DNA from: Haploplasma modicum ATCC 29102
Lineage (GTDB): Bacteria; Bacillota_I; Bacilli_A; Acholeplasmatales; Acholeplasmataceae
Assembly: GCF_000687835.1 (NCBI RefSeq)
Contig: NZ_JHYB01000003.1
Coordinates: 124,001-188,000, forward strand
Direction: 5' to 3'
Length of the DNA stretch: 64,000 bases
Position 1 is the stretch's first letter, and each line of letters opens with the position of its first letter. Shown here in pieces: positions 16,772-52,683 of this stretch. Below the pieces are notes generated by a model. That model was not told where the DNA came from. It ran no database searches and worked only from the letters and a program-made list of their open reading frames with translations. A program made the position numbers and the translations under genes.

Positions 16772-16802
16772 TTTATTTCCTCCATTTTTTTAATTCACTT
16801 AT

Positions 16803-16867
16803 ATTATAGGAAATAAAAAACTCTACAATAACCATTAAAAGTAAAGGTAATGTAAAGTTTATGTAAA
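16803..16867 (-). promoter_or_regulatory. PHO-box-like promoter of the pst-pho operon
   Basis: On the minus strand three direct repeats TTTAC(A/T) start exactly 11 bp apart (16867, 16856 and 16845 reading leftwards). They lie upstream of a perfect TATAAT -10 box at 16808-16803. No good -35 box sits 16-18 bp from the -10. The 11-bp phasing of TTTACA-like repeats is the known arrangement of PhoP sites in Bacillus. PhoP binding here is an inference, strongly supported by the operon context. Confidence 0.8.
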
Positions 16868-17011
16868 AAATTTGATGTAGTAAAAGCAAATTGGTTTTTA
16901 TGTGAATCTTTCGTCTCAATAATAAACCAAAAAATGTTTGAGCCAGAAAATTTATGACAATATATTTGATACTCAATTTAATTATTTGTAGATAAGATTT
17001 ATACTTAAACA

Positions 17012-19417
17012 TTATACTTCTGTTAAAACATAATAAATAAGTTCAAAAATCTTAACAAAATAAATATTCTTTAAGTTGTTAAATCCTATCAAACTATTGT
17101 GATGAAGATATTTATTTCTATCATCCTGTAATAATACCTTTATTCTATTTGATAAATCATTATAGTGTACATTATTAGTATTAAAATTTCTTTCAAGTAT
17201 ATATCTAAAATCATTAATAGTTAAACCTTCTCTCCATCTATCAACTTTAAGATTTATCGATTTAAACTGATTATTTTTTTTTATCATCAATGTATTGCTA
17301 TCATTATTCAAACTAGTCTTATATTCAATTAGGTTTGCAATTAGGTTTTCTAATGATTTAGTTAGCAATACATAAATAAATGTCCAATCAATCGAGGTTT
17401 TATCTTTAAAAAGATTTTCTTGATTAATTTCATAATAATCTAATAAATATTTTGAAAGACCTAATGTATAAGTCCAATCATATAATTTATTAGTTTTTAA
17501 TTTTTCCATTCTATCTTCTATTTCTACTCTTGATAGTTTTTTAAAATTTGAATAAAAAGTACTTGATGAAATCTCAAAATATAAATAATTAATAATATCT
17601 ATTTTAGTATTAGAAAAATCGAACGATGATATAGCATTTATTTTTTCTTCATTTAATGTTTCTTCATTTGTTTTTTTATCACCATACTTCTCACCAACTA
17701 ATATTTTTAATTTATCCAAGGCTCGTAAAGCTTTGTTTTTTTCATAAATTCTCTTTTCTAAAAATTCAATTTTTTCTACCTCCCTAGTAAATCTGCATTT
17801 AGGAAAATCAGTACATCCATAAAAAAAACTAGATATTCCTTTTCTTATAGCAAGAGGTTTACCGCACTCATCACATATTTCTTCGGTTTCAAAAGATGTA
17901 TTATCAAAATCTTTTCTATATAAATCTAATTTTTTTTCTGACTTATTACCTAAATCTATTATTTTACTTAATTTTGAAAATTCATTAGGATAATTTCTTA
18001 ATTTTAATTTCAAATCTCCAAAAAGAATGAGGTCTAGAACATCAGGATTTGCTTCACCGATAACTTTTTCAATTGTTTCCGTAAGTTGTAAATTAAATGT
18101 TTCTTCCACATCGTATTTTAAATCTCTCTTGATCCTACTAATAAAGTTGTAAAGATCAAATAATTTTTGCTGTTCTTCCTTTTTCAGATCAATATTTTTT
18201 TCTAATGATTCAATTTTATTATAAAGTTTCTCATAAATTTTAATTTTTTTATCATTAATTAAATTTTGATCCCTAATAGCTGTAGATATTAGCTCATTAT
18301 TATTACTATTAAATAAATCGAAATCTTCATGTTTAAAATACTCATTTATATTTTTTTTTATGTTCATTTGATCTTTTTCTAGTGTATTTAGTTCATCAAT
18401 TTCTGATATAGTAATATTTTTATAGTAATATTCATATGGGTTTTTTATAATATAGTTTGATTCTTCTTGATCAATATCTATTGTTTCCTTTAAATCAGCT
18501 AATTTAATATTTTCAAGATATTTAAGATTAGATAGTCTAAATTTATTAAGTTTATTCTTTGGAAATATACTATCAAAGATATTAATAAATTTAGGCGTAA
18601 TAGCATAAATTTTTGATGTTAGATAGAAATTATCGACTTTATCAAAATCAAATGATAGTAATAAAACTGCCTGAAAATATATTTTATAAAAATCATAATA
18701 GGATACATTTAAATCATATAAAAAATAACTATTATTTGAAAAGAAACTGTCTAAAAACTCAATAAGTTTTTTTACTTGTTCGTTATTATAATTATTTTCA
18801 TTTAGTAGAAATCGTGAAATTATTTTAAAATGATATATAATGTTTTTCTTATAATATCCTAGTTCTTCTTCACTAGGAAAATGAATTAAATTAAAATCAA
18901 ATTTTAAATAGTATAATTCTAATAATTTTGTTTGAATTTTTCTTTTTTCTTTTTTGTTTCTATTTTCTGTTCTTATTAAGTCCATTAACCCATTAATAAG
19001 AGAAAATATAAAAATATTTTCTTTACCGTAAGGTTCAAAAAAACCTGTTGTATAAGTAAGATATCCTTTTTCCCTGAACTCATTAAATATATTTTTAATT
19101 TGTTCGTTAAATTTTTTAAAATCAATAACATTAATTTCAATTTCAAAAACTTCAAAAATTAGTAATTTAACATACTCTAAATATGTGATTTTTCTTAATT
19201 TCATAATTTTAAAAATTTTTACAAATTTATTTAAATCTTGATCACATTCATCAAATATGATTTGATGCTCAAAATCATAAAAATAATTATACGAGTATCT
19301 TAAATTTATTGAATAAAATAATAAGTTAAATAATAAGTTTGCATTATTTGCTGGACTCATTACTATCCTATCATTAAAATTAAACATTTCTTTGTTTAAA
19401 AAATCATAATAGTTCAT
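17012..19417 (-). CDS. Large unknown protein with topoisomerase-type zinc ribbon and HEPN-like C-terminus
   Basis: About 800 aa, not recognised as a named family. It is Asn/Lys/Ile-rich and mostly helical, with coiled-coil stretches around residues 350-470 and 545-600. Near residue 515-545 a CDECGK...YGCTDFPKCRF pattern matches the C4 zinc ribbon of topoisomerase I tails. The C-terminus carries DDRNKYLHHNSL, an R-x4-H motif as in HEPN RNase domains, placed in a helical context. The ATG at 19417 is preferred over the upstream in-frame TTG because it follows the stop of the 34-aa leader ORF by two bases. It neighbours an insertion sequence and a defence-like locus, so a defence role is possible but unproven. 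Confidence 0.7.
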   Translation of the reverse strand: MNYYDFLNKEMFNFNDRIVMSPANNANLLFNLLFYSINLRYSYNYFYDFEHQIIFDECDQDLNKFVKIFKIMKLRKITYLEYVKLLIFEVFEIEINVIDFKKFNEQIKNIFNEFREKGYLTYTTGFFEPYGKENIFIFSLINGLMDLIRTENRNKKEKRKIQTKLLELYYLKFDFNLIHFPSEEELGYYKKNIIYHFKIISRFLLNENNYNNEQVKKLIEFLDSFFSNNSYFLYDLNVSYYDFYKIYFQAVLLLSFDFDKVDNFYLTSKIYAITPKFINIFDSIFPKNKLNKFRLSNLKYLENIKLADLKETIDIDQEESNYIIKNPYEYYYKNITISEIDELNTLEKDQMNIKKNINEYFKHEDFDLFNSNNNELISTAIRDQNLINDKKIKIYEKLYNKIESLEKNIDLKKEEQQKLFDLYNFISRIKRDLKYDVEETFNLQLTETIEKVIGEANPDVLDLILFGDLKLKLRNYPNEFSKLSKIIDLGNKSEKKLDLYRKDFDNTSFETEEICDECGKPLAIRKGISSFFYGCTDFPKCRFTREVEKIEFLEKRIYEKNKALRALDKLKILVGEKYGDKKTNEETLNEEKINAISSFDFSNTKIDIINYLYFEISSSTFYSNFKKLSRVEIEDRMEKLKTNKLYDWTYTLGLSKYLLDYYEINQENLFKDKTSIDWTFIYVLLTKSLENLIANLIEYKTSLNNDSNTLMIKKNNQFKSINLKVDRWREGLTINDFRYILERNFNTNNVHYNDLSNRIKVLLQDDRNKYLHHNSLIGFNNLKNIYFVKIFELIYYVLTEV

Positions 19418-19419
19418 AT

Positions 19420-19524
19420 TTATAACCAAAATAAAATATTATTAGTAGTAATATTTTTAATCTTTTTTATTAAATTTTCTGGTGTTTTTATTGTCAAAAC
19501 ATAATCCAAATATTTTCTTTTCAT
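19420..19524 (-). CDS. Small upstream ORF (34 aa), possible leader peptide
   Basis: The ATG at 19524 is preceded by a strong Shine-Dalgarno (AGGGGGA, seven bases away). The frame runs 34 codons to TAA at 19422-19420, two bases before the ATG of the large HEPN-like protein. The peptide starts MKRKYLDYVL and ends NNILFWL, basic at first and hydrophobic at the end. No homologue is recognised. The good ribosome binding site and tight stop-start junction argue for translational coupling. The downstream gene has no comparable site of its own. Confidence 0.6.
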   Translation of the reverse strand: MKRKYLDYVLTIKTPENLIKKIKNITTNNILFWL

Positions 19525-19545
19525 TATATTATCCCCCTAAATTTT

Positions 19546-19583
19546 AAAAATGTTGTAATTTATAATTTAATTATAACATTTTT
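19546..19583 (-). promoter_or_regulatory. Long AT palindrome with -10-like box upstream of the leader ORF
   Basis: The arms AAAAATGTTGTAATT (19546-19560) and AATTATAACATTTTT (19569-19583) form an imperfect inverted repeat with one mismatch in about 15 positions. It contains TATAAT on the minus strand. It sits about 20-60 bp upstream of the small ORF start. It may be an operator for autoregulation or an RNA hairpin in the leader. Confidence 0.45.
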
Positions 19584-19652
19584 ACATTAAGTATATCTAT
19601 AAATCAATAATTACATTTGATAATTTTATTTTCAATCTATTGCTTCTATAAA

Positions 19653-21293
19653 TGTCAAGTTAAGAATGGACAAATGGAGGTGAGGACAAAAAGTTGGACT
19701 TAATAAAGGAGCTTTTAAGATGATATTTAACTCTGAGCAGAAAAATATAGCAATCAATTTATTGGTAAAACTTGACTTTCAATATACAAAAACAATAATA
19801 ATGTTAGGGTATCCTTCAACAAAAACATTGAAAAAGTGGTATTTGTATTATTTAGAGAAGGGTTATTTTGTAAACAAGAAAACAACTAGAGTACGATTTT
19901 CCAAAGAAACAAAATCAAAAGTATTAGAATATTACTATGAAATCGGTGAAAACATTTCTAAAACAGTTAGATATTTTGGTTTTCCATCTAGAGCAACATT
20001 ATCAAAATGGATTTCAGAATATGATAAAAATAAACCTAGTCATTGTTTAGCTAATAAACCTGTAGTAAAATATAACAATACTTTAGTAAAAGAGATAACA
20101 AAAGATATCATTTTAAATGATGTACCTTTACATAGAGCAAGTAGTTATTTGAATATTTCTGCTACTACTTTATATAATTGGAGAAACAAACTACTAACAA
20201 ATGCAGGTGCAATTATGAATAAAATAAAAGGTGAAAGTAATACTACTGAAAATATTTTAGAGGATAAAATAAATACTTTACAGAAGAAATATAATGATTT
20301 GCAGTTAGAATATGATATTTTAATCAAAGCACAAGAAATATTAAAAAAAGAAAAGGGCGTAAGCATTAGTAATTTAACTAATAAAGAAAAAGCTGATATT
20401 GCTTATGCCCTAAAAGATAATTATCAGCTTAATGTGTTATTAAAAGTACTCCATTGTGCAAAAAGCACATACTTCTATCATTATAACAATAGGGATAAGA
20501 AAGATCCCTATGAACAACTAAGAAAAGAGCTTCATAATGTTTTCAACTCAAACTATCAAGCTTTTGGATATAGAAGATTGTATGATTATTTTAAAAAAAC
20601 AAGTTTAAAAGTTTCTGAAAAAATTATAAGACGTTTGATGAAAGAAGAAAATATAATAGTTGTTAATCATAAAAAGAAAAAATATATGTCCTATCTTGGA
20701 GAGATATCTCCTGCAGTTGATAATCTACTCAAACGAGATTTTAAATCTGATAGACCTAATAAAAAATGGTTAACAGATATAACTGAATTTCATATACCAG
20801 CTGGTAAAGTCTATTTATCACCAATTATTGATTGTTATGAAGGCTATGTTGTAAGTTGGACTACTGGTACCACACCAAATGCTAATCTAGCAAATAAAAT
20901 GTTATTAAATGGAATTAAAAAACTAAATAAAAATGAAAAACCAATAATCCATAATGACAGGGGTTGTCATTATAGATGGCCCGAGTGGATTAATATTACC
21001 AAGAACAACGGACTTATAAGATCAATGTCAAAGAAAGGTTGTTCACCTGATAATTCTGCATGTGAAGGTTTTTTTGGTAGAATAAAAAATGAATTTTTCT
21101 ATGGAAGAGATTGGACTAACGTAAGTATTAATAATTTTATTATACTTCTTAATAAATATTTAACTTGGTATAATAATTCTAGAGGAAAAAGAAGTTTAAA
21201 CGGACTTACTCCAAATGAATATAGGAGTTTATATTACAAATAGAAAGTCCAATAAATAGTCCGCACCTCCTATTGTGTACTCTTATTTAAACA
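19653..21293 (+). mobile_element. Complete IS3-family insertion sequence (about 1641 bp)
   Basis: Imperfect terminal inverted repeats of about 49 bp run from 19653-19701 and 21245-21293. Both start TGT and share blocks TAAG, GGAGGTG, GGAC and TTGGACTT. The element carries a single intact DDE transposase gene. The outermost TGT...ACA ends fit the IS3 family. No clear target-site duplication was found at these boundaries. An outer TATAAA/TTTATA pair is inverted, so the real ends may be a few bases further out. Confidence 0.88.
19720..21243 (+). CDS. IS3-family transposase, OrfA and OrfB joined in one frame
   Basis: 507 aa. The N-terminal 190 residues contain repeated helix-turn-helix segments (GYPSTKTLKKWY, GFPSRATLSKWI, NISATTLYNWR) and a leucine-rich coiled coil, equal to OrfA. 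The rest matches OrfB: an HTH_21 segment (AFGYRRLYDYF) and the rve integrase core. DDE residues are seen in LTDITEFH, IHNDRGCHY and DNSACEGFFGRIK. Most IS3 elements need a -1 frameshift between OrfA and OrfB; here the fusion is direct. The gene is intact, so the element may be active. Confidence 0.92.
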   Translation: MIFNSEQKNIAINLLVKLDFQYTKTIIMLGYPSTKTLKKWYLYYLEKGYFVNKKTTRVRFSKETKSKVLEYYYEIGENISKTVRYFGFPSRATLSKWISEYDKNKPSHCLANKPVVKYNNTLVKEITKDIILNDVPLHRASSYLNISATTLYNWRNKLLTNAGAIMNKIKGESNTTENILEDKINTLQKKYNDLQLEYDILIKAQEILKKEKGVSISNLTNKEKADIAYALKDNYQLNVLLKVLHCAKSTYFYHYNNRDKKDPYEQLRKELHNVFNSNYQAFGYRRLYDYFKKTSLKVSEKIIRRLMKEENIIVVNHKKKKYMSYLGEISPAVDNLLKRDFKSDRPNKKWLTDITEFHIPAGKVYLSPIIDCYEGYVVSWTTGTTPNANLANKMLLNGIKKLNKNEKPIIHNDRGCHYRWPEWINITKNNGLIRSMSKKGCSPDNSACEGFFGRIKNEFFYGRDWTNVSINNFIILLNKYLTWYNNSRGKRSLNGLTPNEYRSLYYK

Positions 21294-21426
21294 TTTATAA
21301 TAGTGTGTTTTATTATTAAAATACTCTACTGATATATAGTTATACTACTTGCATGTCCGTTAACACCTATTATCGGTAATAGTAAATTAATTATAGAATA
21401 ATATTAATAATATCTGTTCTACATAA

Positions 21427-21516: not shown

Positions 21517-21795
21517 TCATGTGGTCTCTTCTTGAAATTGAAATATAGCTTCAAGTATTTTATATACTTCATTTTTTTCAACTGAAATTCCATTCATCAT
21601 CCTATTTCTTTTAATATTATACTTTCTAAAATCAATAACCTCTTCTTTGATTGGTGAATTTTTCCAAATAAGCTTACTAATTCTTTTAACAATGTTTTTA
21701 TTCCCAATTCTACAATATTCTTTTGTTATTATGTAATAATCATTTTCTTCTAATGGTTTTATTATAGACTCTAAAATCACATCATCTATGTTCAT
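21517..21795 (-). CDS. PC4/YdbC-like putative ssDNA-binding protein, copy 2
   Basis: 92 aa. The pattern NIVKRISKLIWKNS ... IDFRKYN ... MMNGISV matches the neighbouring 84-aa protein. It resembles the PC4/YdbC fold, in which basic strands bind single-stranded DNA and a DIRKY-type motif and a KGI turn are conserved. It starts in an A-TAATG overlap with the upstream copy, with GAGGAGA as ribosome site. It is the last gene of the putative defence operon. Function is inferred from the fold pattern only. Confidence 0.6.
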   Translation of the reverse strand: MNIDDVILESIIKPLEENDYYIITKEYCRIGNKNIVKRISKLIWKNSPIKEEVIDFRKYNIKRNRMMNGISVEKNEVYKILEAIFQFQEETT

Positions 21796-22049
21796 TAATC
21801 TTTCTCCTCTAAAATCATTTTTATTGCATTTTTAACATCATCTATTTCGTCTATTTTAAAACTAATTCCTTTGTAATATTCATTTTTCTTTTTATTATAC
21901 GTTCTAATATCAAAGTACGGGGTATCACCTACAGATTTCCAAATCACTTTTGATACTCTTTTGATTATATTGCCGGTACCTATGTCAACATAAATTTTTT
22001 TAACAATCATTAATTCGTTTTCAAATATGGGGCTTTTATTTTCATGCAT
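21795..22049 (-). CDS. PC4/YdbC-like putative ssDNA-binding protein, copy 1
   Basis: 84 aa with NIIKRVSKVIWKSVGD, FDIRTYNKKKNEYYKGISF and a C-terminal helix. This is the clearest PC4-like pattern of the tandem pair (FDIR-Y ... KGI). The Shine-Dalgarno GAGGTGA is inside the end of the upstream gene. PC4-like proteins bind ssDNA or melted duplex. In this operon it could act with the helicase/SMC pair. This role is an inference. Confidence 0.65.
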   Translation of the reverse strand: MHENKSPIFENELMIVKKIYVDIGTGNIIKRVSKVIWKSVGDTPYFDIRTYNKKKNEYYKGISFKIDEIDDVKNAIKMILEEKD

Positions 22050-22053
22050 AATT

Positions 22054-22533
22054 TCAATTCACCTCAAAACTTATTCCTTGCTCTTTTATTATATTGTCAC
22101 ACCACTTAATCCAACTTTTAACTGTACTGCCTCTCCTTTTAGCAGTAACTTTTGAAAGTTTATATATGTTTTGAATTTCTGTTTCAACAAATTCTAAATT
22201 TCTATTTTTATAATACATGTAGAATATGTGGTTTTCTAAAATCAATTTAACAAAAATAATAAAAATATTTTTCAAAGGGAAACTCATAACAAACTTTGCT
22301 AATTCAGTTGTTTTGCCATCTTCAATTAATCCAAGAAAAATCATGGCATCTTTATAATAATCTTGTTGCCTTTTTGATAGTTCAGTTTCGACCTTAAATA
22401 ATGCACTTTGGAATCTTTTATATGTCATTTCATCAAGTTTTTTAATAATATAATATATATTATTCGCTTGTGGGAACTTATATTCTTGCGGTTTCTTAAT
22501 GTTCAAAATTACTGATATTTTGGCCATCTTCAA
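22054..22533 (-). CDS. Unknown protein with winged-helix-like segment shared with the methyltransferase tail
   Basis: 159 aa, starting at TTG 22533, which overlaps the TGA of the preceding gene; GAGGAG lies nine bases upstream. The segment LSKRQQDYYKDAMIFLGLIE, a following short helix ending in MSFP, ILENHIF and TVKSWIKW make a pattern often seen as an accessory domain in restriction-modification proteins. The same order (YLNTLRYLGLI ... ELMNKEVF ... ITKKWVSYF) occurs in the C-terminus of the methyltransferase at 27468-28715. No catalytic motif is visible. Likely a DNA-recognition or interaction subunit (inference). Confidence 0.6.
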   Translation of the reverse strand: MKMAKISVILNIKKPQEYKFPQANNIYYIIKKLDEMTYKRFQSALFKVETELSKRQQDYYKDAMIFLGLIEDGKTTELAKFVMSFPLKNIFIIFVKLILENHIFYMYYKNRNLEFVETEIQNIYKLSKVTAKRRGSTVKSWIKWCDNIIKEQGISFEVN

Positions 22534-23066
22534 TCTAAAATCTCCTCAATTAATATATCATTCATCTTCTCATTCGGACTTAAAGAACTTTCCAAAACCT
22601 CCTGAATTGCATCGGCAACATTAACATTCTTATCGTCATAAACGAACATAATATCATATAAAATATCAATTCCTCCGAGCATATATTCATAGAAAGTGAT
22701 TATATTTGTTAGTTCATAAAACTTTTTATCATTAGTGGACGTAACTTCAAACGCCATCTCAGGAATAACCTCATCATATTGCTTATCTAAATTATCTAGT
22801 ATAGTAATTAAAGCATAGTAAGAATCCATCTCTGTTCGATACTTATCATAAGTAGTTCTTAGCGAGAATTCTCTTGAATACTCTGTGTCATCTGCAGCTT
22901 TATTGACTTCCAATGTGACTCTCTTTTTATTAATCACTCCTAAAAGAGATAAAAGAAAATGTAAAGAGTGAAATTTATTATCTTGTTCAAATCGTTTCTC
23001 AATTTCTTTATATTTTTTAGAGTTGTATTTCAATCTAAAATCTTGTACATTATTAATTCTTGACAT
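22530..23066 (-). CDS. Unknown defence-operon protein between SMC ATPase and wHTH-like protein
   Basis: About 178 aa, mainly acidic and helical, not recognised. The ATG at 23066 is preferred: AAAGTGGTGA lies eight bases upstream and the gene then starts just after the SMC stop. The N-terminal part (FRLKYNSKKYKEIEKRF, FHSLHFLLSLLGV) is followed by an acidic C-terminus. Position directly after a DndD-like ATPase suggests a partner subunit. I considered DndE, but it is longer and lacks a convincing match. Confidence 0.6.
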   Translation of the reverse strand: MSRINNVQDFRLKYNSKKYKEIEKRFEQDNKFHSLHFLLSLLGVINKKRVTLEVNKAADDTEYSREFSLRTTYDKYRTEMDSYYALITILDNLDKQYDEVIPEMAFEVTSTNDKKFYELTNIITFYEYMLGGIDILYDIMFVYDDKNVNVADAIQEVLESSLSPNEKMNDILIEEILD

Positions 23067-23067
23067 T

Positions 23068-25110
23068 CTATAATTCACCACTTTCGTTTATATATGTTGA
23101 TAAATTTACTAATTCAATTTCGTTATAATCAACCGATCCTTCCTCATTTAAATATAATTCATACGCTTTCCCAACATTGTCACCTATTGATGCAATCAAC
23201 TCATTCTTTAATTGCTTTTTAAAAGACAAGAATATTAATTGCTCCATATTGTTTAAGCTATGTTTTGATAGTCTATTTATATGAGTTGAGTCTAAGTTTG
23301 ATAATGCGGCGTCCATTATTATTCCATATTTCGAATCCTTATCAATATCATTTGATAATTCTTTTGCGGTTTCAATCAATGCTGATATTAAAGATATTGA
23401 TACAACCACATTTTGACCAGTTGATAAAACACTAGTTACATCATTTTCATTAATATCAAATATTTTAATGTTATAGAACTCATCTATTTCGGTTCGATAT
23501 TTACCTTGCATTACCTTTGAAAGTGTTTCTTGAAAATGTTTACCTAAAGTTTCACACGCCTGTTTGTTTTTTTCATCTCTAGTTTTTTCTGTGATTTCAA
23601 TCACCTTTTCTAGAACCTCAATTACCCTCATAATTTTTTTATTTTGAATGTTATTTTGATTAATTTCCAAAAGTTTCCTATCTTGCTTTCTAAGTTTGTC
23701 TTCAACCGAGTCTAAAACCCTTTTTTGTTCTCCTCTAGATTCTCTAAGATCCATCATTTTATCGCTAGCTTTATCAATTTCACTTGAGTAATTTATGTTA
23801 TGTTCTGTTTCAAGTCTTTTAATATTAATTTCAAGATTTTTAATCTCACCATTTATTTGTTCAAGCTCATATTTTTCTCCACTTATTTTATTGTGCATAT
23901 CACTTTGTTTAACAAACATATCATTAAATTCTTTAGCTCTATTAAACATTTGTTGTATTTCACTTAAATTATGAGCTGTTTCAAATGGAAGTGCACTACT
24001 TTTCAAAGACTCGATTTTATGACGTTTCAAATGATTAACCGAAATTTCTTCTCCACAAAGACAAATCCCACTAGACAATATATCTTCAATTGTATCTATA
24101 TGAAGGTTTCTATACCTAACCTTGCTTTCAAAATCTTTGTTTGCAAAATCATTATATGATGTATATACTGAATTAAGTATTTTATTAATATAAACTGATA
24201 AACTTTTCGAAATATAATCCTCAGACAATTCATCTATTCGTTCTTTTTTTTCATCATAATCTTTTTCAAGGTTTTTTAATCGATCATTCAATTTTTTTAT
24301 TTCCTCAATTTTTGATTGCATGACACGGCTGCTATCTATAATTTTCTTTTGTACAGATATTTGATCGTCAATCTCAGAAATTTTACTTATTAAATTTTGT
24401 TTTGCTATTTCAAGCTGTTTATTTTCGTTAATAATTTTATTATCTTGATCAGTAGCCCCCTGTCTCCGTCCATATAGTTTTCCGATTACTGTAGATGACT
24501 TCCCTTTTGTACCTAACAAATCAATTAATTCATCATATTTTTTTATATCTAGAATTCCAAGTATTGACTCTTTTAAATCCGACTTAAAAGCCCTATCTGT
24601 AATGTTTCTCTCCATTCTCTCACCATCAAACATAAATATATAGGATAAACCTGGGGGAAGAATACTATGCATCTTATCTAATGCCTTAGAAGTGTCAATA
24701 TCTCTATATCCAGCAATTTCATCCGAAATTCTCAAAATAAATCTTTCTTCTTTAAAACTATTTATTTTACCATTAAGTTTCTGAAAAACTTCTTCTCTTC
24801 TTGCTATAAAGGTGTTTCCTTCGTGATAAAACTCTACTTCTACAAACATTTGTGCTTCCTCAACCTCTTTTAAATCTTTTTGTAACGAGTTGTTTAAAAG
24901 ATTGTCTGGCTCTGGAAGATTTAAATAATTTGCTGAAGAACCAAAAAAACAGTATCTAATAGATTGCAATAATGTGGTTTTCCCAACACCATTGTCTGCC
25001 ATTACTAATGTTATGTTTTGAGAATTATTATTATCTGGTACTGCAAAATCTATGGTTACTTCATTTTTATATTGTCTAAAATTTTTTAGCTTAATTTTTC
25101 TAAAAATCAT
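23068..25110 (-). CDS. DndD-like SMC/Rad50-type ATPase
   Basis: 680 aa. Walker A is DNGVGKTTLL (about 39-48). Long coiled coils flank a hook region with ICLCGEE near residue 350. The signature is LSTGQ, and Walker B/D-loop reads IIMDAALSNLD. The Glu after the Walker B Asp is replaced by Ala, and FMFDGERM is close to the F-DGE motif of DndD proteins. This class couples ATP hydrolysis to DNA handling in phosphorothioation and several defence systems. The gene starts inside the end of the 46-aa ORF, with TTGGAGGA as ribosome site. No DndB, DndC or DndE is visible nearby, so a canonical Dnd system is not supported. Confidence 0.85.
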   Translation of the reverse strand: MIFRKIKLKNFRQYKNEVTIDFAVPDNNNSQNITLVMADNGVGKTTLLQSIRYCFFGSSANYLNLPEPDNLLNNSLQKDLKEVEEAQMFVEVEFYHEGNTFIARREEVFQKLNGKINSFKEERFILRISDEIAGYRDIDTSKALDKMHSILPPGLSYIFMFDGERMERNITDRAFKSDLKESILGILDIKKYDELIDLLGTKGKSSTVIGKLYGRRQGATDQDNKIINENKQLEIAKQNLISKISEIDDQISVQKKIIDSSRVMQSKIEEIKKLNDRLKNLEKDYDEKKERIDELSEDYISKSLSVYINKILNSVYTSYNDFANKDFESKVRYRNLHIDTIEDILSSGICLCGEEISVNHLKRHKIESLKSSALPFETAHNLSEIQQMFNRAKEFNDMFVKQSDMHNKISGEKYELEQINGEIKNLEINIKRLETEHNINYSSEIDKASDKMMDLRESRGEQKRVLDSVEDKLRKQDRKLLEINQNNIQNKKIMRVIEVLEKVIEITEKTRDEKNKQACETLGKHFQETLSKVMQGKYRTEIDEFYNIKIFDINENDVTSVLSTGQNVVVSISLISALIETAKELSNDIDKDSKYGIIMDAALSNLDSTHINRLSKHSLNNMEQLIFLSFKKQLKNELIASIGDNVGKAYELYLNEEGSVDYNEIELVNLSTYINESGEL

Positions 25111-25240
25111 ACTTATCCTCCAAAATCTTAATAATCTTTTCTGTTTTAGTTGATTTACTTATTTTGTCTGTTGCATAAAGAATCTCTTCTACCTCATTTA
25201 AAAGTTCATCCATTAATTTTTCTATATTTTTATCAGTCAT
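25100..25240 (-). CDS. 46-aa protein coupled to helicase and SMC genes
   Basis: The ATG at 25240 overlaps the end of the helicase gene by eight bases, and the TAG at 25102-25100 lies 11 bases inside the SMC gene. The peptide (MTDKNIEKLMDELLNEVEEI at its start) is acidic and helical. Tight overlaps on both sides, and a gap between the two large genes that it exactly fills, support a real gene. Small proteins beside DndD-like ATPases occur in other DNA-modification clusters, as far as I recall. No function can be assigned. Confidence 0.7.
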   Translation of the reverse strand: MTDKNIEKLMDELLNEVEEILYATDKISKSTKTEKIIKILEDKYDF

Positions 25241-27347
25241 ATACTTTTACCCCTTCTCTTAAGTATAATTTTTCAAATCTTTCTAACTTGTAATTTAACT
25301 CATCTTTATTTTCCGCCAGCTGGGAAAATTCATAAAATCTTTGTAATTCTTTCCTGTTAAGGCTAGTAAAATCTGTGTTATTATCGTTTTCTTGAAGAAC
25401 GATAAAATCATATATTTCCGCCTTTTCTTTTGCTTTCCCGTTTTCATCATAATGCTTTCTTAGAATTCTACCCCTTCTTTGTATAAATTCTCTTGGATTT
25501 GTAGAACTAGCCATTATTATCGCTCTTTCAATTGATGGTATATCTACACCTTCATCTAGACACCTTATTGCTAAAAGGGTAGAGTAAGTCTTGTCCTTAA
25601 ATGCTTTAATTGATGAAATTCTTTCCTCTTCAGATTCTTTACTTGTATATCTGGAAAACCTAATATTCCTTTTGGATAATATTTTACCTACACTGTCTAT
25701 TTGTTTCATAAAAATTTCATCTTCTTGTTTGTCTTGGTATCTTAAATCATCATTTTTAAGTGTTTGATTTATTTCGACTTCTTTTTCTGACGTAATCCCA
25801 CTATATATTACAAGATTCCCTTTTTTTTCTATTTCATCAATAATATTGTCCAAGATAACTAGTTTATTCATAGCACCATAAATTACTCGGGCTCTTTTAA
25901 ACAATAAAGAACTAATAATAGGGTCGTTTGAAAATTCAACATCCTCATCTGAACCTATCATTTTAACAATTTTGTGCGTGATTTCCTTATAACTTTCCAC
26001 TTCTGAATCTGTTAAATCTACGATTATCGGATGATAACTATAATTTACTAAGTATCTATTTTTTATAGCTTTCTCTAAGTCATATTTAAATATTACTCCA
26101 CCAAAAAAATCATAAAGTACTCTTGTAAGCTCTTTATTTCCATAAACTTCTGGTGTAGCACTCAAGCCAAGAATCATATTTGGATTTGGTAAGCTTCTTA
26201 CTTTGTTATATGTTCCAAATCGATGCATTTCATCAGCAATCAAAAAATAATCACCTTTAAGTTTATCCAATTGTCGTCTAAATTTGTCAGAATAGAAACT
26301 TTGTATTGTTACTAATACAAGAGATTGTTGCTTTTCACTATATTTATATAAACCAATTTCATCTTTAAGTTGAATTTCCCATCCAGGATTTTTTGAATAA
26401 CATTTTAGTATTTTTGAATACTCATCCTTCATTTCGTTTCCCCATTGATTTAACAATGTAATATCAGGTAAAACAACTATAGTAAATAATTTGTTACAGG
26501 AAGTTCTTAAAATATTATTTATGTATATTGCTGTTTTAGTTTTTCCTGTTCCTGTTGCCATTTCCAATATACCTCTTTTATCAATAAGCCATCTTTCTGC
26601 AGCTTCTATCTGATAATCTCTCGGCTTAAATCTATTAGGAATTTTATCTTCATCAAGTATACTATCAAACAACTCGTCAATACTGTCATTTGTTTTAAAT
26701 TTATTTAAAAAATCAGCAGGTAGTATTTCATTTATATTTGTGAATTTAACATTATTCATTTTGTTTTCCCAATAATTCTCAAAATCTTTAATGTTTTCCT
26801 CAACATACATATTCCCCAATTTATCCCAGCTTTTGAATATCATAAATGATTCTGTATTCAACTTTAATGCAGACAAAGTCTCGTTGTTTGAACCTATCAT
26901 TGATATTTTATTACCATTATTGTCATAGAAAATTCCTATTTTATCGTGAAATATTCCTTTTTCATTAACTGGTTCAGCAATTTTAATTTCTAAAACACCT
27001 TTTTTCAAAAGATAAAATAGTATTTGTGATGATTTTATACTTCCCTCATCTATTAAAAAATTCTCAAACATATTCTCGGTTATTTTAGTTAAGTTTTCTC
27101 TTGATTCAATAACAGCATTTAAATCTTCAATTGTTAAAACAGGTGAAATAATAAGTCTCATAACTCCATCATTTAATACAAACTTTCTTAAACCTTGTAT
27201 GTAACCTAAAAGAGCAGCAGACGAAAAGTATCCTACTGCCCGATCATACTTCTTTGATTTATTTAAAGTTGGTACATAAAAATCATTAATAATGTCATTA
27301 TTTATAGAACTATATTTTATTGTTATTTCTAAATCTTTAAATGACAT
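25233..27347 (-). CDS. PLD-nuclease/superfamily 2 helicase fusion
   Basis: About 704 aa from the ATG at 27347, which has GGAAGTGAT upstream. Residues 1-200 form a phospholipase D-like nuclease domain with a single HxK motif (FHDKIGIFYD, His134 and Lys136) and IGSNNET. Residues 235-660 are an SF2 helicase: RDYQIEAAERW, Walker A ATGTGKT (264-270), DEMH (372-375), LGLSATPE, CLDEGVDIP and QRRGRILRKH. Such fusions act as restriction or defence effectors. A single HxK suggests dimerisation to complete the nuclease site. The gene follows the methyltransferase by about 120 bases and ends in TGA. Confidence 0.88.
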   Translation of the reverse strand: MSFKDLEITIKYSSINNDIINDFYVPTLNKSKKYDRAVGYFSSAALLGYIQGLRKFVLNDGVMRLIISPVLTIEDLNAVIESRENLTKITENMFENFLIDEGSIKSSQILFYLLKKGVLEIKIAEPVNEKGIFHDKIGIFYDNNGNKISMIGSNNETLSALKLNTESFMIFKSWDKLGNMYVEENIKDFENYWENKMNNVKFTNINEILPADFLNKFKTNDSIDELFDSILDEDKIPNRFKPRDYQIEAAERWLIDKRGILEMATGTGKTKTAIYINNILRTSCNKLFTIVVLPDITLLNQWGNEMKDEYSKILKCYSKNPGWEIQLKDEIGLYKYSEKQQSLVLVTIQSFYSDKFRRQLDKLKGDYFLIADEMHRFGTYNKVRSLPNPNMILGLSATPEVYGNKELTRVLYDFFGGVIFKYDLEKAIKNRYLVNYSYHPIIVDLTDSEVESYKEITHKIVKMIGSDEDVEFSNDPIISSLLFKRARVIYGAMNKLVILDNIIDEIEKKGNLVIYSGITSEKEVEINQTLKNDDLRYQDKQEDEIFMKQIDSVGKILSKRNIRFSRYTSKESEEERISSIKAFKDKTYSTLLAIRCLDEGVDIPSIERAIIMASSTNPREFIQRRGRILRKHYDENGKAKEKAEIYDFIVLQENDNNTDFTSLNRKELQRFYEFSQLAENKDELNYKLERFEKLYLREGVKVYD

Positions 27348-27467
27348 TTTATCACTTCCTATTTTAATTTTATACATTTAAACTATTTCTTTTATGCATC
27401 TATTATATTTTAAGTAAATTTTATACAATAAAAAACTATTAAAAATTATTATACAATTATTATAGAT

Positions 27468-28715
27468 TTAGTTAATTTCAAAATAAGATACCCATTTTTT
27501 GGTAATTTTCACTTTTTCTTCTAATAACTCCTTTGAATAATTTTCAAACTTATTACTAATAACATCCTTTACCCTTTTAGAAAAATCTTTTTCGGTTGTA
27601 TCCATATTAAAAACTTCCTTAAAGACTTCTTTATTCATTAGTTCATTATATATATATTTTTTAATTGCGTTATTAGAACTTTTCTTTAGTTTTTTTCCTT
27701 TTTTAGTGAAATTTTTTTTATTAGTAATTAGGCCAAGGTATCTTAAAGTGTTTAGATATTTTTGTAATGAATCATCTTCGTATATTTTAATGTTATTTGT
27801 AGAAATAATTTTCATCAGCTCATCGAAGGAAATATCTTCAGGAAAATTTGTGCCATATCCTAGTATAATAATTTCTTTCCCGGATTTTCTTGAAGAACCA
27901 TTACTATTTATTGTTCTAAGTGTATTTATATGTTCAATGTTGAAAAATATTTCATAATTTATATCATTTTCAAATAGTTCAATTACTCTGTCTGTTGCAT
28001 TATTTGATATTATCACATAAGCTCCTTTAGAAATTTGTTTATCCAACATTTTTTTAAGTTCTTTGAAATCATCAAATGTAAATCCCTCTTTTTGATATCC
28101 CGTAAAGCCATTTTCTCCACCATAATCATAAGGTGGATCAACATAAATTATGTCTCCTTTTTTTACTTTCATAAGTGCATCTTTGTAATTTCCGCTTAGT
28201 ATTTCTACACTTTTGGAAAAATAACTTGATAATTTATAAATGTTTTCTTCTTCATAAATGCTAGGATTTTTATACTTGCCTTCTGGAGTGTTGAATTCAC
28301 CTCTTAAATTTACTCTATACAAACCGTTATAGCATGTTTTATTGAGAAAAATAGTTCTTGCAGCCTTTTCATAATCTTCCATATTGTTATATTCTTCTTT
28401 ATCTCTGTCTATTTTACGAATATCATAATAATAATTTTCTATTTCATTATATTTTTTTTTGTGTTCAGAAAGTTTTTCAATTAATTTTTTAGGATTATCT
28501 TTTACAATTTTATATGCATTAATTAGTTCGTTGTTTAAGTCATTAATTATAGTTTTATCGTGCTTTAACTTAATAAATATTGAGCCGCCACCAACAAACG
28601 GTTCATGAAAAGTATAATCACCACTATTGAACTTAGTAAACATATGAATTTTTTCAATAATTATATCGGAAATCTGTCTTTTACCGCCTGCCCATTTAAC
28701 AAATGGTTTCATCAT
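27468..28715 (-). CDS. Dam-like DNA adenine N6-methyltransferase with C-terminal extension
   Basis: About 415 aa of the D12 class. Motif X/I is KPFVKWAGGKRQ and FHEPFVGGGSIF, motif IV is YVDPPYD, and KTCYNGLYRVNLRGEFN is the usual target-recognition neighbourhood. Dam proteins have about 270-300 aa; here about 130 more follow and resemble the small protein at 22054-22533. The ATG pair at 28715 follows AGGAGA and is preferred over the in-frame TTG at 28736. It probably protects host DNA from the helicase-nuclease downstream. The recognition site may be GATC, but this is not provable from sequence. Confidence 0.88.
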   Translation of the reverse strand: MMKPFVKWAGGKRQISDIIIEKIHMFTKFNSGDYTFHEPFVGGGSIFIKLKHDKTIINDLNNELINAYKIVKDNPKKLIEKLSEHKKKYNEIENYYYDIRKIDRDKEEYNNMEDYEKAARTIFLNKTCYNGLYRVNLRGEFNTPEGKYKNPSIYEEENIYKLSSYFSKSVEILSGNYKDALMKVKKGDIIYVDPPYDYGGENGFTGYQKEGFTFDDFKELKKMLDKQISKGAYVIISNNATDRVIELFENDINYEIFFNIEHINTLRTINSNGSSRKSGKEIIILGYGTNFPEDISFDELMKIISTNNIKIYEDDSLQKYLNTLRYLGLITNKKNFTKKGKKLKKSSNNAIKKYIYNELMNKEVFKEVFNMDTTEKDFSKRVKDVISNKFENYSKELLEEKVKITKKWVSYFEIN

Positions 28716-28749
28716 TTCATCATTCTCTCCTATCAATTGTTTATTAACT

Positions 28750-28886: not shown

Positions 28887-29449
28887 CTATTTATTTCTCT
28901 TAGCTCTTTCAGCTAATACCTTTTCCATAACAATATCCTTACTCTTCATAATTCTAACTGTATTACTACGTTCAGTATCTTCAAGTTTCATTGTTATTCT
29001 TTTAATATTATCTCTTAAGTCTGGAATCATTACATTTTCAATAACGTTAACTCTTCTTCTATTTTTTGCTATTTCTTCCGTCATTAAGTGAATACTTTGT
29101 TCCATTTCGGATAGTTTAATTAGTTTAGGAAATAGATCATTCATTTTATTTTCTACTTCATTAATTTCCATTGGTGCACTTATTTCACTATATATTTGAT
29201 TACCTTTTGTATCAATTTCTTTTAAATCAATTTTAGGTATTTCAACAGTCATAATTGATTTATGTTTATAATCAATTTCAATTTTACTACTAAGAATCAT
29301 TAACATTTCATAAATGTCTACTAAGGCCTTTTTTTGTTTCATTTTAACAAACACACCTAAAACATCAGAAAAAAGTAAATCAACTTCTTCACTTAATTCC
29401 CTAGTTTCATTAATTCCATTCTTGTTGGATTAATTTGGCCTTTGTTCAT
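28887..29449 (-). pseudogene. V-type ATPase subunit D, internally deleted remnant
   Basis: The C-terminal 155 codons carry the subunit D signature (AKNRRRVNVIENVMIPDL, then ITMKLEDTER). A normal N-terminus with ATG at 29449 and a strong AAGGAG site reads MNKGQINPTRMELMKL and then hits TAA. In another frame ELSEEVDLLFSDVLG leads into the rest. The helix that normally joins the two parts (about 33 codons) is missing, and the join is out of frame. Subunit D forms the central stalk of V-type ATPases, so the product would not work. No other V-ATPase genes are in the window. Confidence 0.85.
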
Positions 29450-29606
29450 AGTTACTCCTTATCTTTGTAATAATATTTATCATTATTTTTTATAAAAACT
29501 TGTTGGTTTTATATCGTTTTCATAGTTTTTACTATTGAAATTTCTATTTTCTAAAAAAATAAGTGGTTTTTATGCTAAAAACAGTCAAAAGCGTCATTTT
29601 TTGCAT

Positions 29607-29638
29607 AAAAAAAAGGTCTGATACATATGTATCAAACC
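29607..29638 (-). terminator. Terminator hairpin left of the decayed insertion sequence
   Basis: The minus strand reads GGTTTGATACATATGTATCAG and ACC followed by eight T. It contains the palindrome TGATACATATGTATCA. It would terminate leftward transcription from a gene that once lay to the right, where the decayed element now sits. The rest of 29450-29646 shows no gene. Confidence 0.7.
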
Positions 29639-29646
29639 TATACTAT

Positions 29647-31127
29647 TGAATCGACTCTATTAAGTTGGAGATAAAATCAATTAATCCACACCTATTATAA
29701 TTCATTTATTATTTTATGTCTATAATCAACAGGACTCATTTTTAATTTAGACACTATTCTTGTTGTATTATAGTAATTTATATACTCATCAATTGCTGCT
29801 AGTAAATCATCAGCATTTTTATATTTGTGTTCATGGCCATACCACATTTCTTCTTTCATTCTTCCAAAAAAAGTTTCAGTTGGACTATTGTCAAACAGTT
29901 CCCTTTTCTACTCATTGATTGAATAATCCCTAACTTTTATAAACGTTCTCTATACCTAGAGTTTTGATATTGCACTCCTTGATCAGATTGGATCATCATC
30001 CCTTTTATTTTATTTCCATGTATCTTTTCAAGGTCATCTAACATTAACATTTTTTTATCCATTTTCACGTCTTTTCCTGCCTTATAAGCTAGTACCTCAC
30101 GTGAATCAAAATCAATAATTGGCGATAGATAAACTGACTCTTCATCCAAAGGAAACACACTTATATCTGTACCTGCTTTTTCATATGGAAAAGATTTTTG
30201 AAATTTTGACTCATTTCATTAACTTTTACTCCTCCCATATCACCTTCATATGAATTATATTTGCGCCAGTTTCTTTTTTTAATCTTAAGATATTCCTTTT
30301 CCCTCATTATATCGTTTACTTTGTTTTTGCCAATATGATAGCCTAACTTTATAAGTTCTATATGAATTCTTTGATAGCCCATTATTTTCTTATGTTTGTC
30401 TTTATAAAGATAATCTATCACTTTTTTAATCTCTTCATATTTATCTGGTTTCTCTTATTTAAACTCTGATAAATGATATTAATATACTGAACTTGCCATT
30501 CCTGTTATTTCTAGAAGGATTTCTAATTTAAACTCTTTCCTTAACTCCATAACAATTAAAGCTTTTTCTTTATTTGTTACACCTTCTAGTTTTTTGGTTA
30601 AGGATTGAGATTTTTTTAAATACTCTATCTCCGCTCTTAATCTTTGGTTTTCTTCAATAAGTTTTTTATCAACTATTACTTTTGCTCTTTCATCTTTTAA
30701 AACATAATTCTTTCAGGGTAAGTATCTTCTATTCCTGCTTCTCCTTTAGCTCTATAAATCTTTAACCATCCACCTAGTATAGTTGGATCTAATAAACCTA
30801 AATCTAAAGAAACACTTCTTATTGATTCTCCATTTTTTAATACTCTTGAAATCGCTAATAGTTTTGTATCTCTATAATATATTTTATCTTCCCGATTTAA
30901 AAAACATCTTTCCCAAATTTCTTATAAAAATTTATTAAATACTTTAAATTTCCTATATTATAATTTCCGTTATCTTCTGAAATATGTGATAGAGATTTTT
31001 TGTTTAAAACATGTTCCTCACACATCTTTAGTTTTTCTTCTAATGTTAATCTCATAAAAAAAGACTCCTTTGTTTAAGATTAGGTATGGTTATTATACCT
31101 TATCTCCAACTTTTGGGAGTCAGTTCA
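29647..31127 (-). mobile_element. Decayed IS150-like (IS3-family) insertion sequence
   Basis: The ends share TTGAATCGACTC / CTGAACTGACTC followed by AAGTTGGAGATAA as inverted repeats, giving an element of about 1.48 kb. The minus strand carries recognisable OrfA and OrfB pieces broken by several frameshifts and stops. The right end lies only eight bases beyond the 3' CCA of tRNA-Leu. It is unrelated in detail to the intact element at 19653-21293. Confidence 0.85.
29690..31057 (-). pseudogene. IS150-like transposase remnants (OrfA and OrfB)
   Basis: Reading leftwards, an OrfA start (ATG 31057, MRLTLEEKLKMCEEHVLNKK) is broken and continues in other frames with helix-turn-helix pieces (GLLDPTILGGWLKIYRAKGE). 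OrfB pieces follow: HTH_21 (GYQRIHIELIKLGYHIGKNK, 30161-30421), the rve part with LSPIIDFDSRE and IQSDQGVQY (29937-30158), and finally DNSPTETFFGRMKEEMWYG to the C-terminus (29690-29920). The DDE acidic residues are present but lie in at least three disconnected frames, so no active enzyme can be made. Confidence 0.88.
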
Positions 31128-31135
31128 GTTTTGTA

Positions 31136-31219
31136 TGGTGCGGGTGACAGGAATCGAACCTGCACGCCAATGGCGCTAGATCCTAAGTCTAGTGCGTCTG
31201 CCAGTTCCGCCACACCCGC
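31136..31219 (-). tRNA. tRNA-Leu (anticodon UAG)
   Basis: 84 nt with acceptor GCGGGTG/CACCCGC, a long variable arm typical of class II tRNAs, anticodon loop CTTAGGA and T loop GTTCGAT. The 3' CCA is encoded. The decayed insertion sequence abuts its 3' side. Confidence 0.95.
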
Positions 31220-35399: not shown

Positions 35400-35493
35400 T
35401 CAAATCGCCCGCCTTTACTATGTATATTTTATCATAAGTTTTTAACTAGTAAATTGTGTTATCGGTCTCACAATGAAAGCCCTTTTAAAAATG

Positions 35494-35499
35494 TTATAA
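35494..35499 (+). promoter_or_regulatory. -10 box of the neopullulanase-malR unit
   Basis: TATAAT at 35494-35499 is immediately followed by an ATG (35501) that is too close to be the start. The real start is therefore the ATG at 35516. The leader would be only about 10 bases with a weak GGTGAT site. The opposite strand has TTTACT with a 16-bp spacer to TAAAAT for malL. Confidence 0.55.
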
Positions 35500-35515
35500 T
35501 ATGGTTGGTGATAAT

Positions 35516-41603: not shown

Positions 41604-42992
41604 TTATCCTTTTGTTGCTCCAGCCATGATTCCTTCAATTAAATATTTTTGGAAAACCATGTAAAGTATCGCAATTGGCATACCAACAATTAATGATGCA
41701 GCTGCAAAGGCAGAATAATCAATATTGTTAATATCATTAATAAAGTTAAATATACCAACAGCTAAAGTCCATTGCTGCTGAATATCATAATCAACTGGGG
41801 CACCTTTTGGTGGATGGTTTAATAAATAACCTGGTAGCATATAATCCATCCAAGGACCCATAAACATTGATACAGCAACAAAGGTTAAAATTGGAATAGA
41901 AAGTGGCAAGATAATTGATGTAAATATTTTTAATTTACTTGCACCATCTATCTCTGCCGATTCGTCTAAATCTCTTGGAATTTGATCTAGGAAACCTTTA
42001 ATTAACCAAAGGTTACCAGGAATACTGCCACCAATATAAAGAATGGTTAATGCCGTTGGTTTACCTAATAGGCCAAACTTCCAAAACAATACATACATTG
42101 CAAGTAATCCCATAAATGAAGGGAATGCTTGAAGTACTAAAATAGATAGTAATCCTGCTTTCTTTCCTTTAAAATTATATCTAGCAAAAACGTATGCAGC
42201 ACCACTAATAATTACAGTACCAGCAACCATGTTAATTAAAGCAATAATAATTGTATTTTTATACCACATTGTAAATTTAGTTTCACTAAATAGTCTTACA
42301 AATGCATTAAATGTTGGTTTGTCTGGCCAGATTGAGTTTGGAACACCCGATTTTAAATCACTAAATGCCATACCAAAGATATAAATAACTGGTATTATAA
42401 CGATAATTGCCATTAATGCTACTTGGCCCTGAATTAATATTCTACTAATAATGTTTTTAGGCGTAAAGCAATCAATTAATCTTCTTCCTTTAACAAAGGT
42501 TCGTTTGCTTGGACACATTTTATTAACTATAAAGAAACTTGCAATTGGAATTAAACCAATTAATGCAATCTTTAAATTTTCTGTATCTCTCTTTTTTCCG
42601 AAATCAACAGTTAATCCTTGATTTAATAATATTAATAATAAAATCAAATAATAAAGTACTGCTTTTCTAATTAAATTATTTTTGGTTTGTAAATATAATA
42701 TTAAAATAACTGGTACTAAAACTATAACTATTAATAGTGAAATTACAAATGTTATACCAATTCTTTTTAATACTTGTTCTCTAGTAAATAAATATTTTAT
42801 ATTTTCTTTCTTATATTCTCTACTTCTAATTTCAAGCTTCTTAACATAGATATATCCATATACTGGAATATATGATAGTAATTTTGTTCTTTTATCATCA
42901 ATATTTTTCATTTTTAAAATATCATTATTTAAGAAATATTGAAATAATAACGCCCAAACAATTAAAAATAATATTATAATTAATCCTATCAT
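41604..42992 (-). CDS. malG: Maltodextrin ABC permease MalG with N-terminal membrane extension
   Basis: 462 aa. The last about 275 residues are a normal MalG permease with six helices and the EAA loop (ESAEIDGASKLKIFTSIILP). The first about 185 residues are extra, with about four predicted membrane helices and a basic loop (KKLEIRSREYKKENIKYLF). MalG is usually about 280 aa. The gene follows malF by two bases. It forms the sugar channel with MalF and is energised by the ATPase at 54742-55929. Confidence 0.93.
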   Translation of the reverse strand: MIGLIIILFLIVWALLFQYFLNNDILKMKNIDDKRTKLLSYIPVYGYIYVKKLEIRSREYKKENIKYLFTREQVLKRIGITFVISLLIVIVLVPVILILYLQTKNNLIRKAVLYYLILLLILLNQGLTVDFGKKRDTENLKIALIGLIPIASFFIVNKMCPSKRTFVKGRRLIDCFTPKNIISRILIQGQVALMAIIVIIPVIYIFGMAFSDLKSGVPNSIWPDKPTFNAFVRLFSETKFTMWYKNTIIIALINMVAGTVIISGAAYVFARYNFKGKKAGLLSILVLQAFPSFMGLLAMYVLFWKFGLLGKPTALTILYIGGSIPGNLWLIKGFLDQIPRDLDESAEIDGASKLKIFTSIILPLSIPILTFVAVSMFMGPWMDYMLPGYLLNHPPKGAPVDYDIQQQWTLAVGIFNFINDINNIDYSAFAAASLIVGMPIAILYMVFQKYLIEGIMAGATKG

Positions 42993-51864: not shown

Positions 51865-52683
51865 TTATGCTAATATTTTCTTTCCTTGTGTTAATAGCAC
51901 TAACATTACAATCATCCCACTTGATAGTTGAAACACAACTGGAGCAAATGGTGTTGACATTAAACCTACAATAAAGGTTAAAATTGCTGGAACACCAAAA
52001 CACATCATTACAAATTTTAAACCATCTTTAAAATTAAGGAAGTTTTGATATCCAAATCTAAACAACTGAACTAAAAGAGCAAGAATTAATGCATAGATAA
52101 TATTTACACTAATTTGGATAATATTGTTTCTTACTAAAGTATATAGAATAATATCTTTTTTAAAAGATTTCTCTGTACTACTTGCAAACTCTTTATAAAG
52201 ACTAATTTTCTCTTCTCCAGTTGCAAGATTTATATCGTTTAATCTAAACTCATCTTTACTAAATCCTTCATAACCTATTCCTTCTAAAACATTTCCTTCA
52301 TTATCGACATAAATAATTGTATTTTCACTAAATATTAAAGAGTTATGGTTAGTTTTAGGATCAACCTTTTCTTTATTATTAAAGATATAATTAATTCCAT
52401 CATGAATAAATAAATATACATCCTCTGAGTTAGATACTAATTTTCCTCCTTTAATAACTAAATCAGTTGGTAATTCCCAGTCAAGAGGAACTCCTTTATC
52501 AAAACTCTCCACAATAAAATCTAGTCTTGAACCCTCATTTTTTACTACTTCATATGAGGCAGGAAAATTAGATATAAGAATTAAAATAATGAAAAATATT
52601 GATAATTTGAATAAACTTTTCTCTTCTGATTTAAGTATACTTTTCAGTTTTAACGAATCAAAGAAGTATTCAATTACAAACAT
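51865..52683 (-). CDS. DUF1189 membrane protein, YvdJ-like
   Basis: 272 aa from the ATG at 52683. One N-terminal membrane helix (about 28-45), an external domain and three or four C-terminal helices fit the DUF1189 family. The Bacillus maltodextrin cluster contains a DUF1189 protein (YvdJ), so the same association recurs here. Role unknown. The start overlaps the amylase stop by one base (TGATG). Confidence 0.75.
   Translation of the reverse strand: MFVIEYFFDSLKLKSILKSEEKSLFKLSIFFIILILISNFPASYEVVKNEGSRLDFIVESFDKGVPLDWELPTDLVIKGGKLVSNSEDVYLFIHDGINYIFNNKEKVDPKTNHNSLIFSENTIIYVDNEGNVLEGIGYEGFSKDEFRLNDINLATGEEKISLYKEFASSTEKSFKKDIILYTLVRNNIIQISVNIIYALILALLVQLFRFGYQNFLNFKDGLKFVMMCFGVPAILTFIVGLMSTPFAPVVFQLSSGMIVMLVLLTQGKKILA

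Follow-up and report, generated by a model that had tools for sequence, protein, structure and literature searches.

HEPN endoRNases are defined by an R-x4-6-H motif in which the residue after the arginine is usually polar (N, D or H); the motif lies at the end of helix 3 in a four-helix fold, before the last helix, and some HEPN families are reported to be fused to zinc ribbons (PMC3710099). In ABC-ATPase/DndE neighbourhoods, endoRNases including HEPN proteins are reported at the boundaries, where they are probably backup suicide effectors (PMC10853773). We analysed a stretch of 64,000 nucleotides from Haploplasma modicum ATCC 29102 (hereafter the window), which covers bases 124001-188000 of contig 3 in a genome of 1.22 Mb (10 contigs, 99.75% complete). 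An orphan gene in this window encodes a protein of 805 amino acids and is the next cellular gene after a Pbe-Dam operon on the same strand. The favoured reading, to which we give somewhat less than an even chance, is that the protein is a dormant accessory effector located at the edge of a restriction island of Pbe type that includes Dam methylation. The large ORF and the parts discerned in its product are the following:

17012..19429, minus strand: orphan ORF, 805 aa from TTG at 19429 or 801 aa from ATG at 19417
17012..17512, minus strand: candidate HEPN-like helical domain, residues 640-805, from a low-confidence model
17102..17119, minus strand: R-N-K-Y-L-H motif, R771 to H776, a candidate HEPN R-x4-H active site
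17771..17881, minus strand: topoisomerase-type C4 zinc ribbon, residues 517-553, with C519/C522/C539/C545

The ATG at 19417 is more likely to be the start than the TTG, and codon usage is coding-like across nearly all of the ORF. The product is laid out as a helical N-terminal part of about 500 residues, the zinc ribbon and a helical C-terminal domain. Pfam recognised the ribbon and no other domain; the match to Zn_ribbon_Top1 (PF01396) has an E-value of 3.9e-11 and 43 bits against a Pfam cut-off of 32. The first-pass annotation had described a topoisomerase-type ribbon, an RNKYLHH motif near the C-terminus and long coiled coils. The first two are present as described, and the coiled-coil idea rests on long helices in a full-length AlphaFold2 model of very low confidence (pLDDT 35). 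AlphaFold2 was run on single sequences without homologues, and the full-length model was set aside as useless beyond helix tendency. A further ORF at 16773-17012, beginning on the stop of the large ORF, was rejected as a gene because of its non-coding codon usage.

R771-N-K-Y-L-H776-H is the sole R-x4-H in the protein, which has seven histidines in all, and N772 supplies the polar residue after the arginine, a feature that is weak by itself. Across shuffled copies of the protein, R-x4-H is expected 0.23 times (P = 0.21) and RN-x3-H has a P of 0.027; R[NDH]-x3-H within the last 80 residues occurs in one of the 45 long frames of the window, the 805-aa ORF. Judged by sequence, the R-N-x3-H motif is near chance on its own and is suggestive of HEPN, not proof of it. 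The structure prediction of the C-terminus that the first-pass annotation had suggested gave a pLDDT of 46 for residues 640-805, with four or five helices and no significant fold match. In this low-confidence model R771-H776 sits at a helix end and is followed by a final helix of 25 residues, a placement that would fit the HEPN helix order. A PDB fold search with the C-terminal model returned no match at E ≤ 0.001, the HEPN chains 1jog and 7ae6 appearing only at E 5-9. Likewise, no HEPN profile matched the protein in Pfam, NCBIfam, PADLOC or PHROGs, in searches whose HMMER filters hide very weak matches. The HEPN fold of the C-terminus is thus unproven, neither confirmed nor refuted; metal-independent RNase activity, another mark of the superfamily, is likewise a putative property of the protein.

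An appreciable possibility, clearly below an even chance, is that RNKYLHH is a chance match and that the product is a large helical zinc-ribbon nucleic-acid-binding protein of the island (a sensor, a scaffold or another nuclease) and no HEPN RNase. The shuffling values (P 0.21 for R-x4-H, 0.03 for RN-x3-H), the missing profile and fold matches and the ribbon as the only recognised domain all agree with it, whereas the N after R and where the motif falls with respect to the last two helices would fit HEPN, and HEPN RNases are reported in this operon context (PMC10853773). A toxic RNase appears plausible chiefly because of the Pbe and Dam operon context, relatives of which are reported to carry boundary HEPN RNases (PMC10853773).

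Missing homologues are the main obstacle for the 805-aa protein. The whole protein was searched in 61 relatives, its C-terminal 250 aa in 160 genomes of the order, its N-terminal 510 aa in 395 genomes of the class and a ribbon-masked version in 392 genomes of the phylum; the C-terminal part was also searched in 90 genomes from the order of the genome with the nearest PbeC. Plasmids, phages, GTDB contigs and IMG/VR were covered as well; for the GTDB contigs, the queries were the default peptides and, in addition, a pattern centred on RN[KR][YF][LI]HH. Alignments for some of the GTDB and IMG/VR patterns had artificial rows that steered the choice of pattern, and these rows are not evidence. Beyond the ribbon, no collection searched yielded a relative: some searches came back empty, and the others returned just the ribbon or matches due to chance or to coiled coils. 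A weak match to the C-terminal part in L051 was dismissed, as it falls on a DEAD-box helicase.

The operon next door comprises the following genes:

21517..22049, minus strand: two small ORFs of 92 and 84 aa, the second weakly PC4-like (E 8e-5, below cut-off)
22054..22533, minus strand: DUF7226 protein, 159 aa (Pfam E 1.1e-13)
22530..23081, minus strand: protein in the DndE-like (PbeD) position, 183 aa, directly after the ATPase
23068..25110, minus strand: PbeC, a CxC-type ABC ATPase, 680 aa (PADLOC PbeC E 4e-74; CLC motif in the sequence)
25233..27377, minus strand: PbeA-like PLD (HKD)-nuclease/SF2 helicase, 714 aa (PADLOC PbeA E 1e-198)
27468..28736, minus strand: Dam-family adenine methyltransferase, 422 aa (TIGR00571 E 8e-69, above cut-off)

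Both proteins that mark a PbeABCD system, the PbeA HKD-nuclease/helicase and the CxC-type ATPase, are present, and by its sequence the operon appears to be a bona fide Pbe-type (CxC ABC-ATPase/DndE) system that looks complete over 21517-28736. The PbeA-like protein also matches dnd_restrict_1 (E 5e-117), below the curated cut-off of that model. The 183-aa protein matched no DndE or PbeD profile in PADLOC and other profile searches and is taken for DndE from its position; its homologues stand directly after the ATPase in L042, L045, L046 and, weakly, L043. DndC is absent from the genome, which has the Dam-type methylase instead (phosphorothioation genes are optional in bacteria). The two small ORFs and the DUF7226 protein are possible, hitherto unreported parts of the Pbe-Dam system. 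Both small ORFs resemble one 101-aa ORF in L042 and look like adjacent paralogues; PC4 is a single-stranded DNA-binding protein.

The nearest relatives of the Pbe-Dam operon are found in L042, another genome of the class, and on plasmids of lactic acid bacteria; among 160 genomes of the order, PbeC was found nowhere else. L042 holds the set in a slightly different order, with identities of 43% for PbeA, 39% for PbeC and 38% each for the 183-aa protein, the DUF7226 protein and Dam, and Lactiplantibacillus and Leuconostoc plasmids carry the helicase, ATPase, 183-aa and Dam genes. Dam counterparts lie near the corresponding operon in L042, L045 and L046. On one Lactiplantibacillus plasmid (NZ_CP040377; L045 1-10553) a block of PbeA, a small protein, PbeC and the DndE-like protein occurs twice in tandem with identical protein accessions. 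The 805-aa protein is absent beside the related operons in L042-L046 and its ORF has the lowest GC content among the 45 genes of the window (20.6%, against 25-28% for the larger genes of the operon); it is therefore not a core or conserved component of the Pbe system.

The surroundings of the gene and the operon contain three further landmarks:

19647..21299, plus strand: IS3-like insertion element with 55-nt terminal inverted repeats at 19647-19701 and 21245-21299
19720-21243, plus strand: transposase ORF of this element, 507 aa
31136-31219: tRNA-Leu, a probable border on the other side, with broken transposase pieces

The IS3-like element, whose end sequences occur again elsewhere in the genome, is upstream of the 805-aa gene and stands between it and the Pbe-Dam operon. 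The gene sits between tRNA-Leu and the pst operon, a probable hotspot, and is missing at the pst locus of the congener G001. Around the operon and the gene, the region looks like a mobile defence island, and the stretch 28887-31219 is a probable island border and integration hotspot. In that stretch, an ORF for V-type ATP synthase subunit D lacking its first 65-80 residues or so is followed by transposase-like fragments and the tRNA-Leu.

The link of the 805-aa gene to the Pbe system is positional only, because an IS lies in between, the gene has its own promoter and the lowest GC, and it is missing from the related L042 operon. The same facts could mean that the gene is an orphan of unrelated origin, a passenger that reached the hotspot by itself and is not functionally tied to the Pbe-type system. 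We regard this as a substantial possibility, though not the probable one: the gene is on the strand of the operon and is the next cellular gene after it, and boundary effectors differ among systems (PMC10853773), both of which weigh against an independent arrival.

Upstream of the large ORF, four elements would control its expression under the effector reading:

19570..19599, minus strand: promoter-like site TAGATA-18-TATAAT with extended -10 TGTTATAAT, 10/12 matches, the best promoter-like site
19545..19584, no strand assigned: imperfect palindrome, a candidate operator, 40 bp; two arms of 16 nt, matching at 15/16, around an 8-nt loop
19533..19538, minus strand: AGGGGG ribosome-binding-like site of the leader ORF, 8 nt before the leader ATG
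19420..19524, minus strand: 34-aa leader ORF MKRKYLDYVLTIKTPENLIKKIKNITTNNILFWL, with its stop 2 nt before the ATG at 19417

A palindrome of 38 bp that includes a -10-like box had been noted earlier; it measures 40 bp, and the extended -10 falls inside it. No other dyad in the 64 kb combines 16-nt arms with 15 matches or more (about 0.07 expected by chance per window, 0.002 in the local intergenic stretch), and the genome holds no second perfect copy. The extended -10 sequence is over-represented in the window (10 copies against 4.1 expected), with several copies just upstream of genes; one at 35492-35500 directly abuts an ORF start at 35501. An RNA hairpin formed by the palindrome was considered and rejected: transcription from this promoter would start inside the dyad, in its loop, so that the RNA would lack part of the hairpin. 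Shuffled versions fold nearly as well as the 201-nt RNA (z -1.2). Because of this predicted start, a putative DNA operator is a better reading of the dyad than an RNA hairpin.

The first-pass annotation had also assigned the only strong ribosome site to the small ORF, and this holds: the sequence ahead of the leader ATG (TTTAGGGGGAT) contains AGGGGG, while neither start of the large ORF (TTG or ATG) is preceded by a Shine-Dalgarno match. G-rich sites akin to AGGGGG also precede the ORFs 41604-42992 and 51865-52686. The leader has a codon score of 3.6 per 33 codons, compared with medians of -4.5 for open non-coding and 8.1 for coding stretches; a score this high is reached by 11.7% of open non-coding stretches, so that its codon usage appears compatible with coding and is not decisive. 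The junction between leader and large ORF, TAA-AT-ATG, has the normal geometry of re-initiation, and the sequence is consistent with leader control of large-ORF translation.

The 34-aa ORF could also be a former N-terminus of the large protein, split off by a one-base frameshift (a mutation or an assembly error) somewhere in the short stretch that is open in both frames. A longer original N-terminus is possible because the large frame opens just 3 codons before the TTG; the frames overlap by less than 20 nt, the only good ribosome site belongs to the leader, and the leader's codon score is coding-compatible. We consider such a split unlikely, given the ordinary re-initiation arrangement at the junction, an overlap in which inspection revealed no canonical slippery heptamer, and the good assembly. 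It concerns the leader alone and is compatible with the other readings. The suggestion of the first-pass annotation that the 34-aa peptide is an antitoxin neutralising the large protein is very improbable: the upstream order and overlap recall toxin-antitoxin operons and the peptide is basic (net charge +5), but it has no similarity to any family and no homologue, its 34 residues give no hint of a folded or DNA-binding domain, and translational coupling explains the junction better.

For the reading as a dormant boundary effector, we infer a course of events from what the locus displays directly (ORF, ribbon, motif, leader, dyad with promoter, and island context), each functional step being conditional. 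A dedicated repressor would bind the dyad over the -10 and keep transcription low. Ribosomes would enter at the leader site, read its 34 codons and start again at the ATG that lies 2 nt beyond the stop, so that the large protein would be made sparingly. The ribbon and helical regions might detect or bind nucleic acid that comes from invaders or from a restriction reaction that has failed, and the C-terminal helical domain might cut RNA with R771/N772/H776, stopping growth once the primary restriction system is defeated. Consistent with this sequence of events are the Pbe-type operon next door, the N after R and the place of the motif before the last helix, the dyad over the promoter, the absence of the gene from the congener's pst locus, and the ribosome site on the leader rather than on the large ORF. 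The observation in the first-pass annotation stands as a whole, all the features it named being present on the minus strand; of its interpretation, the toxic RNase is plausible, chiefly through an operon context that it did not cite, and the antitoxin found no support. A bolder proposal, which we think has little chance of being right, is that the protein belongs to an undescribed class of HEPN suicide RNases, large and with a zinc ribbon, which are kept silent by a re-initiation leader together with an operator of their own and which guard a methylation-linked CxC-DndE system in small-genome bacteria.

Should the C-terminus prove to be a HEPN RNase, a very small genome would provide a concrete and testable example of a suicide effector at the boundary, next to a CxC-DndE (Pbe) system; an operator and a leader ORF may then determine the dosage of this effector. 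The Pbe operon described here, which has a Dam-type methylase in a genome that lacks DndC, bears on whether such ATPase systems need phosphorothioation.

Set against known systems, the 805-aa protein shares with topoisomerase I the C4 zinc ribbon (PF01396; residues 517-553, above the Pfam cut-off), whereas it has no topoisomerase catalytic domain. Its 34-aa leader differs from translationally coupled leader ORFs in lacking conservation in any known relative, the coupling being putative, and is like them in having a good ribosome site on the leader only and a stop 2 nt before the next ATG. From the HEPN endoRNases of R-M and Dnd-type islands (DUF4145-like and others; PMC3710099) the protein is set apart by the absence of a profile or fold match, by the roughly 500 unassigned residues before the ribbon and by belonging to no known family; in common with them it has a C-terminal R-N-x3-H, predicted with low confidence to lie at a helix end before the last helix, a zinc ribbon, as in the fusions reported for some of them, and a defence-island setting. 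Compared with the boundary backup endoRNases of DndDE and CxC-DndE (PbeABCD) systems (PMC10853773), its RNase activity is putative, an IS lies in between, and the system has a Dam-type methylase and no DndC; what they share is the position at the edge of a CxC ABC-ATPase/DndE operon.
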